A stretch of 40,777 bases of DNA, taken from positions 1 through 40,777 of the forward strand of contig CACWSO010000019.1 of assembly GCA_902763505.1 (NCBI GenBank), in the 5' to 3' direction. Below are positions 1,639-4,983 of this stretch, piece after piece (position 1 is the first letter of the stretch; each line of letters begins with the position of its first letter). Position numbers and translations under genes: made by a program. The notes below the pieces were generated by a model. That model worked only from the letters and a program-made list of their open reading frames with translations, was not told the DNA's origin and did no database searches. Source of the stretch: an uncultured Eubacteriales bacterium. GTDB taxonomy: Bacteria; Bacillota; Clostridia; Peptostreptococcales; Anaerovoracaceae.

Positions 1639-2070
1639 CTATAACAGCTTATCCTTCTCATAGAGTCTCTCTATGAATTCGTATATTTCGGGAAGCCGTT
1701 TCTTCAATGGAATCGGCCGCAGATCGTGATTGGTGAATCCGTGACGGCTGTGACCCTTCACATGAAGCACCCCGGTCTCGGCATTTCTGACCTCATAATC
1801 AACTTCCAGAGAGGCAGGGCCGAGTTTTACGATGCGGCATGTTATCGCGATGATCTCGTCGTATACCGCAGGTTCCTGAAATTTTGCCTGAACCGACAGG
1901 ACCGGTATCTGGAAATCTTCCTTCTCCATCTCGGAATATGGAAAACCTTCTTCTCTAAAGTACTCTGTCCTGGCAGTTTCGAAATAACGGATGTAATTCG
2001 CATGGTGCATGACCATCATCTTATCCGTGTCGTAATATTGTACCCGTGTTTTATAACAATACGGCTCCAT
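1639..2070 (-). CDS. acyl-CoA thioesterase, hotdog fold (YbgC/4HBT type)
   Basis: This 143-residue protein has the length of 4-hydroxybenzoyl-CoA-type thioesterases. Near residues 12-35 it has the family signature YYDTDKMMVMHHANYIRYFE, including the catalytic Asp (YDTD) and the HHANY motif before the long helix. These enzymes hydrolyse acyl-CoA thioesters in the cytoplasm; the chain preference cannot be read from sequence. It starts 5 bases after the stop of the acyl-CoA synthetase gene on the same strand, so synthetase and thioesterase are probably one operon acting on the same acyl-CoA pool. The end abuts repeat copy 2. Confidence 0.88.
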   Translation of the reverse strand: MEPYCYKTRVQYYDTDKMMVMHHANYIRYFETARTEYFREEGFPYSEMEKEDFQIPVLSVQAKFQEPAVYDEIIAITCRIVKLGPASLEVDYEVRNAETGVLHVKGHSRHGFTNHDLRPIPLKKRLPEIYEFIERLYEKDKLL

Positions 2071-2075
2071 GATTA

Positions 2076-3926
2076 TTACCCCTCTTTCTTCATCGCAAGT
2101 TTCAGACGTCCGGCTTCCATATCAGAAAGAGCCATTTCCTTCACCAGATAGTGCTGCAGTTTTCCGGTAGCCGTCATCGGCAGTTCCTTGACGAATCTGT
2201 AGTAACGCGGTCTCTTGTAAACTGACAGGTGATCTGACTGCAGGCAGAATTCCACCATATCTGATACTGTAAGATCATCATCTTCTGGCACGACGTATGC
2301 AACAACAGCTTCTCCTCTGATTTTGTCAGGAACACCCGTTACTGCGGTCTGGTGTACTTTCGGGTGCAGGTTCAAAGCCTCTTCCACGATGGTCGGGTAA
2401 ATGTTCTCGCCGCTGGAGATGATCATGTCGTCCTTTCTGCTTGCAATCGTAACGAACTGGTTTCTATCCCAGGTTGCCAGGTCGCCTGTGTACATCCAGC
2501 CGCCATGGAATTTCTTCTTTTCCTCTTCGGCGTTGTTGTAGTAGCAGTAGGATGACTTCGGCGTTCTGATGATGACCTCGCCGATTTCCATCTCATCCAT
2601 TGCGACCATGTCGTCAGGATCTGCGAATTTATCCTCGTACGCCTTGACGACTCTCACGTCATCGTCTGTGCAGGCGCGTCCTGCGGTTCCCGCCATCTCC
2701 GGCAGTTCATAAGGTCTGAGGAATGTGTTCCAGAAGGTTTCGGTCGTGCCATATCCGTTGAAGATGTTCGGTGTCAGGACTTCCTGAACACGGATACAAT
2801 CGGTCCTTTCAAACGGCGCACCCATGGTGACGATTCCTTTCAGGGAAGAAAGATCTGCGCCGAATTTTTCCTGCTGCCTTACCAGCATCTTCATGATGGA
2901 AGGTGCGCCAATCAAGAATGTCACGCCGTACTTCTGTACGTTCTTGAGGGCAAGCTGCGGTTGGAAAGATCTCATGATGACGACTTTTCCACCTGCAAAG
3001 AATGTCGGAGCAGGCCCGCCGGAGTGGATTCCGCCGCGGTGGAACCAAGGCGTCGTATTCATGGTTGCGTCTGTGGAATTCATTGGGAAGTGCATCATAA
3101 CATCATGGCAAGTAAGCACTTCATTGGCGTTGTATAATGGTACTCCTTTTGGTTTCCCTGTGGTCCCGGAAGTATAGAGTCGCATCATTTCGTCATAGAT
3201 ATAAGGCACAAAATCTGTAACAGGCTCCGTGTCAGGATAATCTCTGACAAAGTCACTGAAACGGATATGTCCCTCCGGTAGTTCGCCGTCTCCGACCATG
3301 AGAATGAGCTCTGGCTTTGCATCTGCAGAAGCAAGTGCCTTGACTGAATTATCTTTGTTCGCTTCGTCGTAGATATACACCTTCGGTTCGCTGGAATCCA
3401 GACACACTTTCGATTCCTCAGGCGCAAAACCAGGATTGGCAGGGCTGGTTACAGCGCCGAATTTCTGCGGTGCGAGATATGAAAAGACGAATTCCGGACA
3501 GTTCGGCAACTGGAACAGAACCACGTCTCCTTTCTGCACATTGTGATCCAGCAGGGCGTTGGAGAGTTTATTCACATCTGCATTGAGCTGGCTGTACGTC
3601 CAGGTGCTGTCAGTATGCGGATCCACCATGGCTTCCTTGTTCGGCAGCCTGCGCACGACACGAAGGAAACCCTCGATATATGTGAAGTCACGCTCGAATA
3701 CCTGCCGGAACATATTCTTCTGTTCCGGAGCTCTGTAATCCATCAGTTCATCAATGGAGACATTCAGTGTTTCTGCAATCTTCAGTGCATAAGAAACTGT
3801 TGGATCCGCGCCGCCAGCGCAGTATTTCTTTATCATGTTATAGGTAATCCCCGTGCTGTTCGCTAAGTCAGTCATTGTCATATTGCTCTGTGACAGAGCG
3901 TTTTTTAAGTTTTCACTAAAAGACAT
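2076..3926 (-). CDS. XRE-type HTH fused to AMP-forming acyl-CoA synthetase
   Basis: This 616-residue two-domain protein has an XRE/Cro-like helix-turn-helix at residues 6-62 (MTMTDLANSTGITYNMIKKY, then ALKIAETLNVSIDELM). From about residue 75 it is a full acyl-adenylate-forming synthetase: P-loop-like YTSGTTGKPKG (251-261), YGTTE (392-396), YTGD (479-482), the hinge SRKDDMIISSGENIYP (496-511) and a C-terminal catalytic Lys in the ATGK motif (about 591). The enzyme part should activate a carboxylic acid to its CoA ester with ATP; the substrate is unknown. The DNA-binding part suggests it also regulates a promoter. AGGGAGG lies 9 bases before the ATG, and there is no frame break between domains. 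The thioesterase follows in the same operon. Confidence 0.9.
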   Translation of the reverse strand: MSFSENLKNALSQSNMTMTDLANSTGITYNMIKKYCAGGADPTVSYALKIAETLNVSIDELMDYRAPEQKNMFRQVFERDFTYIEGFLRVVRRLPNKEAMVDPHTDSTWTYSQLNADVNKLSNALLDHNVQKGDVVLFQLPNCPEFVFSYLAPQKFGAVTSPANPGFAPEESKVCLDSSEPKVYIYDEANKDNSVKALASADAKPELILMVGDGELPEGHIRFSDFVRDYPDTEPVTDFVPYIYDEMMRLYTSGTTGKPKGVPLYNANEVLTCHDVMMHFPMNSTDATMNTTPWFHRGGIHSGGPAPTFFAGGKVVIMRSFQPQLALKNVQKYGVTFLIGAPSIMKMLVRQQEKFGADLSSLKGIVTMGAPFERTDCIRVQEVLTPNIFNGYGTTETFWNTFLRPYELPEMAGTAGRACTDDDVRVVKAYEDKFADPDDMVAMDEMEIGEVIIRTPKSSYCYYNNAEEEKKKFHGGWMYTGDLATWDRNQFVTIASRKDDMIISSGENIYPTIVEEALNLHPKVHQTAVTGVPDKIRGEAVVAYVVPEDDDLTVSDMVEFCLQSDHLSVYKRPRYYRFVKELPMTATGKLQHYLVKEMALSDMEAGRLKLAMKKEG

Positions 3927-3962
3927 TATAGTTACCTCCCTAATGCATTTTTACTCGTGCAT

Positions 3963-3991
3963 ATCATATATGTGAATTATAGTTCAGGCAA
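3963..3991 (-). promoter_or_regulatory. sigma-A type promoter of the HTH-acyl-CoA synthetase operon
   Basis: On the minus strand TTGCCT (3991-3986) and TATGAT (3968-3963) are separated by exactly 17 bases. This is a good vegetative promoter, 37 bases before the start codon. The spacer holds one of the two palindromes described separately. Confidence 0.65.
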
Positions 3992-4027
3992 GACAATGAT
4001 ATTTCAGTTGAACTGAATTATAATTCA
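3973..4027. promoter_or_regulatory. twin palindromic operator candidate
   Basis: TGAATTATAATTCA (4014-4027) is a perfect 14-bp palindrome. TGAATTATAGTTCA (3973-3986) is the same sequence with one change and fills the -35/-10 spacer of the synthetase promoter. A related dyad, TTCAGTTGAACTGAA (4003-4017), overlaps the outer site. Centres are 41 bp apart, about four helical turns, which suits cooperative binding by a repressor. The obvious candidate is the HTH domain of the gene itself. Confidence 0.6.
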
Positions 4028-4095
4028 CAGCAAGAACAACCAAAAACGAGCACCAGTAAGGTACTCGCTTTCAATATTTGCTTTGTGATTCTGTC

Positions 4096-4918: not shown

Positions 4919-4983
4919 GTGTTCGACTCCCCTATCGAGTACCAAATAACAATAGAGACCCGTTTGGGTCTCTATTGTTATTT
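4919..4983 (+). repeat. dispersed repeat copy 3: conserved head plus hairpin
   Basis: The 25-base head (4919-4943) is identical to copy 1. A perfect 18-bp stem follows: AAATAACAATAGAGACCC (4944-4961) with GGGTCTCTATTGTTATTT (4966-4983), loop GTTT. The inner stem sequence is unrelated to copies 1 and 2, while pairing is fully kept. It lies in the roughly 320-base gap between the rubrerythrin and brnT remnant genes, which otherwise holds only their promoters. Confidence 0.8.

Follow-up and report, generated by a model that had tools for sequence, protein, structure and literature searches.

The fusion gene and its predicted domains

We analysed a 40,777-nt DNA stretch (hereafter the window; contig CACWSO010000019.1) from an uncultured Eubacteriales bacterium, in which a gene on the reverse strand (2076–3926) encodes an XRE helix-turn-helix (residues 8–61), a short linker and an AMP-forming acyl-CoA synthetase (residues 89–589) as one protein. 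The gene is a single open reading frame (ORF) of 616 aa with an ATG start, no internal stops and GGGAGG ahead of it. By Pfam, HTH_3 was matched at residues 8–61 (E 4.9e-10, score over the gathering cut-off), AMP-binding at residues 89–463 (E 2.3e-68, 231 bits) and AMP-binding_C at residues 514–589 (E 9.5e-19, 68.5 bits), the latter two over their family cut-offs. The protein contains TSGTTGKPKG (252–261), GYGTTE (391–396), YTGD (479–482), RKDD (497–500) and K589, which we take to be the catalytic motifs of AMP-forming acyl-CoA synthetases, and the positions of the core stretches were invariant across 23 aligned fusions save for 258, 395 and 498. With both domains over their cut-offs and the core motifs kept, the predicted enzyme is classed with the acyl-CoA synthetases of the ANL superfamily; no NCBIfam equivalog at its cut-off was found for it among the 25 matches listed. 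The catalytic motifs and the predicted DNA-binding domain share one chain, as in enzyme-repressors (‘trigger enzymes’). A first-pass annotation, made from the letters alone, had described one frame joining an XRE domain to a complete synthetase and a thioesterase gene starting 5 bases past its stop, and both descriptions hold: the first agrees with the ORF, the Pfam domains and the core motifs, and the second with a gap at 2071–2075, followed by operon gene 2 (1639–2070, reverse strand), a hotdog acyl-CoA thioesterase of the YbgC/FadM type that matched 4HBT_2 and 4HBT in Pfam and TIGR00051 over its cut-off.

We scanned 84,980 genomes for exact peptide patterns and obtained 24 loci, 23 of which (L008–L030) encode XRE domain and synthetase in one frame, at 67–99% identity, while L031 was rejected as a spurious 40-residue match. 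Three loci cut by contig ends (L011, L016 and L029) were left out of the protein alignment. The fusion is not an assembly error, because 23 other contigs hold it in frame, and a sequencing error or a chance frame was ruled out on the same evidence; the earlier worry that an error had made the fusion, or that no other genome would share the architecture, is thereby answered. The records bearing the fusion are labelled Mogibacterium, Parasporobacterium, Lachnospiraceae, Oscillospiraceae and Clostridia, one of them being P. paucivorans DSM 15970. The fusion was present at callable length in 13 of the 49 genomes of the window's genus, with a contig-end fragment (L029) in a fourteenth (G503), in 1 of 99 genomes of its family and 1 of 391 of its class (its own genome both times), and in 1 of 299 genomes of the P. 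paucivorans family; judged by the low counts in these last three groups, few lineages carry it and elsewhere it is rare. Trees built on the synthetase part placed the 23 fusions in one group apart from other homologues (support 100/100), and the XRE domains alone were too short to resolve a tree (4 of 20 inner branches well supported).

The N-terminal 70 residues were modelled by AlphaFold2 as a five-helix Cro/C1 fold with a mean predicted local distance difference test (pLDDT) score of 85.4; in the full-length model, the synthetase core came out poorly (mean pLDDT 67.8), and only the N-terminal domain was used. With HTH_3 over its gathering score and this modelled fold, the N-terminal part is a predicted XRE/Cro-C1 domain. 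Its recognition helix (3816–3842, reverse strand; residues 29–37, YNMIKKYCA) was the most conserved block within the domain, residues 29–36 being invariant in the 23 aligned fusions and in 24 of 24 aligned N-termini. The ratio of nonsynonymous to synonymous substitution rates (dN/dS) of the XRE domain was 0–0.12 in the 9 of 13 pairs where it was defined, indicating purifying selection, and that of the synthetase part was 0.02–0.05 in 12 of 13 pairs.

Palindromic boxes at the promoter and in relatives

The fusion promoter contains 14-bp palindromes of the consensus TGAAYTATARTTCA in an array spaced 21 then 20 bp, where we defined three putative operator boxes on the reverse strand: O1 (4014–4027, TGAATTATAATTCA), a perfect palindrome; O2 (3993–4006, TGAAATATCATTGT), which is degenerate with four mismatches and whose place 20 bp ahead of O3 is conserved; and O3 (3973–3986, TGAACTATAATTCA), inside the spacer between the −35 and −10 elements of a predicted promoter (TTGCCT-17-TATGAT, 3963–3991 on the same strand, a consensus match only with 9 of 12 positions). 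The stretch 3960–4030, singled out in the first-pass annotation as the candidate promoter, does hold palindromes, at 3973–3986 and 4014–4027. In the window's own genome (2,285,431 bases), TGAAYTATARTTCA occurred exactly twice, both times at the fusion promoter, where ∼0.04 occurrences were expected, and one-mismatch matches to it were absent. A large regulon in this genome was considered and rejected, 15 sites being found with up to two mismatches versus 16 in a reversed control; such sites being at the control level, only the two exact boxes exceed chance there. Within the window alone, the pattern was not significant at up to three mismatches (9 found versus 5.5 expected), so that the case rests on the exact matches and on conservation.

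The 23 fusion genomes held 18 exact sites, 16 of them within 160 bp upstream of a fusion, one ahead of an unfused synthetase paralogue with a thioesterase, and one elsewhere. A box with up to two mismatches was found within 160 bp upstream of 24 of the 25 fused genes (L011, with no upstream sequence, was left out of this count), compared with 8 of 1235 other 160-bp intervals in the same loci, a background that includes a box at L026:2026. By the same threshold, none of the 25 homologues without this XRE domain (23 at 41–60% identity, 2 at 23–25%) had a box. The three-box spacing of 21–22 then 20 bp recurred in 11 of the 18 loci examined, all of them rather closely related to the window, and the distant relatives L020, L022 and L025 had two boxes 23 bp apart; these spacings, about two helical turns, would suit cooperative binding on one face of the DNA.

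Four synthetases 80–82% identical to the window protein (L132, L134, L135 and L136) lack the XRE domain and start just past the linker. All of them stand behind a ketosynthase gene, three of them (not L132) are followed by a YbgC/FadM-type thioesterase, and a box with up to two mismatches was found in none of the four loci. For two of the four, a longer part of the operon was covered (L141 and L142); it reads acyl carrier protein (ACP), FabK-like, FabD-like, FabG-like, FabF, FabZ-like, second FabF and synthetase, where the Fab names are our own assignments and seven of the proteins in L141 had Pfam matches. The four synthetases formed a clade (99/96) nested in the fused clade (fork support 100/99), for which the simplest history is one gain and one loss of the domain. 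The same fatty-acid-synthesis operon was found on contig C18 of the window's own genome with the synthetase and thioesterase missing, and in L015 and L030 the fusion is divergent from such an operon. In this comparison, the domain and the putative operators go together with a promoter of their own and appear to have been lost together in the clade linked to fatty-acid synthesis.

Boxes were also found ahead of other genes. In G487, an exact box, with a second one 22 bp on (two mismatches), precedes a synthetase paralogue that is unfused and has a thioesterase of its own. In P. paucivorans (L026), an identical one-mismatch box stands ahead of the fusion and of a neighbouring synthetase of another type, whose best NCBIfam match was MbcS, under the cut-off, and as a lead only, a one-mismatch box in L067 of this species precedes a major facilitator superfamily carboxylate transporter (oxalate/formate- or lactate-type, under every cut-off). 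The putative operators stand ahead of genes of the protein's own pathway, which is the arrangement of an enzyme-repressor. Single boxes inside genes (L092, L095, L098, L100 and L101) and boxes before genes with no obvious link (a DUF1028-like gene in L070; L096; L099) were treated as chance. G495 holds five one-mismatch sites, one of them in L068.

Probable self-repression and its alternatives

The boxes are present with the domain and missing without it, and the fusion therefore very probably switches its own gene. That the protein binds DNA at its own promoter, as the first-pass annotation had proposed, is strongly supported by this comparison, in which the boxes track the XRE domain, and it is the part of the interpretation that we hold with most confidence. 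The protein as a whole is probably a bifunctional enzyme and autorepressor that works in the manner of BirA.

In the mechanism we propose, the C-terminal part would activate a fatty or other carboxylic acid using ATP and CoA; a fatty acid is the likely substrate because of the link to fatty-acid synthesis, which is not proof. The N-terminal XRE domain would bind its own promoter at the short row of 14-bp palindromes, and the protein would repress its operon at O3 and, together with O3, at O1/O2. O3 fills the −35/−10 spacer and O2 abuts the −35 element, so that a bound protein should obstruct RNA polymerase and keep operon expression low. We infer further that the two XRE domains of a dimer would be repositioned according to the state of the active site (acid, acyl-AMP or rotation of a domain once CoA has bound), and that the operon would be released once its acid appears. 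Sensing of the active-site state as the setting of repression is favoured by a narrow measure. As to its direction, we lean towards the acid releasing the protein rather than acyl-AMP serving as a BirA-like corepressor, the opposite being nearly as likely.

Several observations weigh against this interpretation. L023 has just a three-mismatch site within 160 bp upstream, with a one-mismatch box farther up, and the boxes of L018, L018b, L019b, L021 and L024 are weak, with two mismatches. The box counts are not independent because many of the relatives are close kin. Only one of the seven genomes holding both the fusion and an unfused paralogue has a box ahead of the paralogue, and the paralogous synthetase operon of the window's own genome has none. 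The predicted promoter is a weak consensus match, six promoter-like sites being found in the region versus 4.7 expected from shuffles. In addition, a second type of fusion, in which an unlike XRE domain (HTH_3, E 8.5e-11) is joined to a paralogous synthetase (L133, 1282–3168, reverse strand), has no box of the TGAAYTATARTTCA type.

The alternative that survives best is plain autorepression, in which the protein keeps its own amount constant and catalysis has no influence on DNA binding. The DNA evidence supports self-binding and yet is silent on a ligand, and the narrow target set in the window's own genome suits simple homeostasis. Nevertheless, strong purifying selection has preserved the domain on an enzyme that is otherwise complete, and boxes before other acyl-CoA synthetase genes in two relatives suit a shared signal better, so that we regard plain autorepression as rather unlikely. 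It is far less probable that another regulator binds the palindromes and that the XRE domain has a different role. The genome does encode other helix-turn-helix proteins, but their matches to the fusion's XRE domain are weak (28–31% identity at best), and the distribution of the boxes (24 of 25 fused genes, none of 25 homologues lacking the domain and none of 4 relatives linked to fatty-acid synthesis) follows the fusion itself. Foldseek matches to the N-terminal domain, all with E > 0.001, were to ImmR, SinR (also with DNA), 434 Cro and P22 c2 with DNA, and the best 50 also included the enzymes HppE, HEPD and MPnS, whose XRE-like domain is not known to bind DNA and which also count against DNA binding here. 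A structural or dimerisation module that has lost DNA binding, as in these HppE-type enzymes, is nonetheless the least probable of the alternatives, since conservation within the domain peaks at the recognition helix, the genes are preceded by matching palindromes, and the enzyme needs no XRE domain for folding, as its close relatives work as genes without one.

The second-type fusion of L133 immediately follows another acyl-CoA synthetase gene, occurs in 1 of the 49 genomes of the genus, and suggests that the arrangement arose more than once. Returning to the enzyme-autorepressor, we tentatively extend it to a fuller reading, in which the synthetase would be a ligand-responsive self-repressor acting through domain rotation on a helically phased array, the array would control other synthetases in some relatives, domain and operators would have been dropped together in the fatty-acid-synthesis operon, and XRE fusion would have arisen more than once; taken whole, this falls a little short of an even chance.

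Known systems and neighbouring features

Few enzymes pair a dedicated DNA-binding domain with seemingly complete catalysis, BirA being an example; NadR and PutA are further enzymes with a dedicated DNA-binding domain. BirA, a group II biotin protein ligase, is functionally the nearest system as an enzyme with a DNA-binding domain, but it modifies proteins and its corepressor, biotinoyl-AMP, is established, whereas the ligand role of the fusion is a proposal. Its helix-turn-helix and catalytic folds also differ from those of the fusion, and no biotin-ligase family was among the fusion protein's Pfam matches, placing it outside the BirA family proper. SinR, ImmR, 434 Cro and P22 c2 are alike in the N-terminal fold but are stand-alone or phage regulators with no enzyme; operators of the 434 repressor type are also 14-bp palindromes. 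The PRK06187-type fatty acyl-CoA ligases with a YbgC/FadM thioesterase are alike in the catalytic part and the operon partner, but the usual members have no XRE domain, and the best NCBIfam match of the fusion reached 365 of 476 bits, under the cut-off.

Group I biotin protein ligases are without the DNA-binding domain, like the relatives linked to fatty-acid synthesis here (PMC4016012). BzdR/BoxR join an XRE domain to a domain derived from an enzyme and resembling shikimate kinase, in a pathway related to acyl-CoA; this domain of BzdR binds benzoyl-CoA and is no longer catalytic, whereas the fusion keeps its core motifs, and the engineered Q1 chimera of an XRE domain and an active enzyme is a laboratory counterpart of the fusion (PMC3602430). 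FadD1 of Pseudomonas aeruginosa, a fatty acyl-CoA ligase, is reported to bind promoters and to respond to a fatty acid, and DsfR is cited alongside it; FadD1 is described without a helix-turn-helix, its binding being attributed to a leucine zipper within the AMP-binding domain, and as a global regulator rather than an autorepressor with its own operator array (PMC12754631). BzdR is therefore nearest to the fusion by domain logic and FadD1 by enzyme class. Our literature search found no XRE-acyl-CoA synthetase fusion, which is weak evidence of absence because subscription journals were mostly uncovered. If the proposed mechanism is true, the well-studied large domain rotation of ANL enzymes would act allosterically on transcription, and orthologues that are fused, unfused or embedded in an operon would form an evolutionary series for the gain and loss of a regulator role; the fusion is also a candidate module for acid-responsive promoters.

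In 17 of the 23 loci, the gene after the fusion encodes a thioesterase (absent in L011, L013, L017, L026 and L027; L016 is cut). The pair in the window is flanked by terminator-like hairpins on the reverse strand, one separating the operator array from the rubrerythrin gene upstream (4039–4075) and one 3′ of the thioesterase (1596–1623), both consensus matches only and about at shuffle level, with four hairpins found in the region versus 2.8 expected. The earlier suggestion of a single switch for synthetase and thioesterase fits the 3′ position of the thioesterase in these 17 loci and the hairpin after the pair. The repeat ACTCCCCTATCGAGTACCAA was found at 1571–1591 and 4925–4945, each copy ahead of a hairpin bordering the region.

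Other variants were found among the relatives. L018 and L019 have tandem fused genes, ∼64% (copy 1) and ∼71% (copy 2) identical to the window protein, possibly an enzyme versus regulator specialisation. An unfused paralogue (L002, 589–2253, reverse strand; L091, 600–2309, forward strand) has TSGTSALPKN in place of TSGTTGKPKG, and its nucleotide-binding loop may be altered accordingly. Ten homologous synthetases (L049, L050, L052, L053, L055–L058, L060 and L066), clustering together in the tree, carry another N-terminal domain, KETKKxRFxRI...RLLENCSNKSNYEY..., for which no Pfam match over the cut-off (two pieces) and no NCBIfam match (one piece) was found, and which may be another regulatory add-on. 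The fatty-acid-synthesis operon is closed by a regulator-like gene, presumably of the MarR type (L134, 721–1197, reverse strand; G000:C18, 9987–10526, forward strand), and the ACP promoters of L141 and L142 hold a different palindrome around ACAAACTAACTA. Finally, the frame from 5073 on the forward strand of the window begins MTEMTFEWDEKKNRINKRKHGISFEEAE and in our view resembles BrnT-type toxins of toxin-antitoxin pairs.
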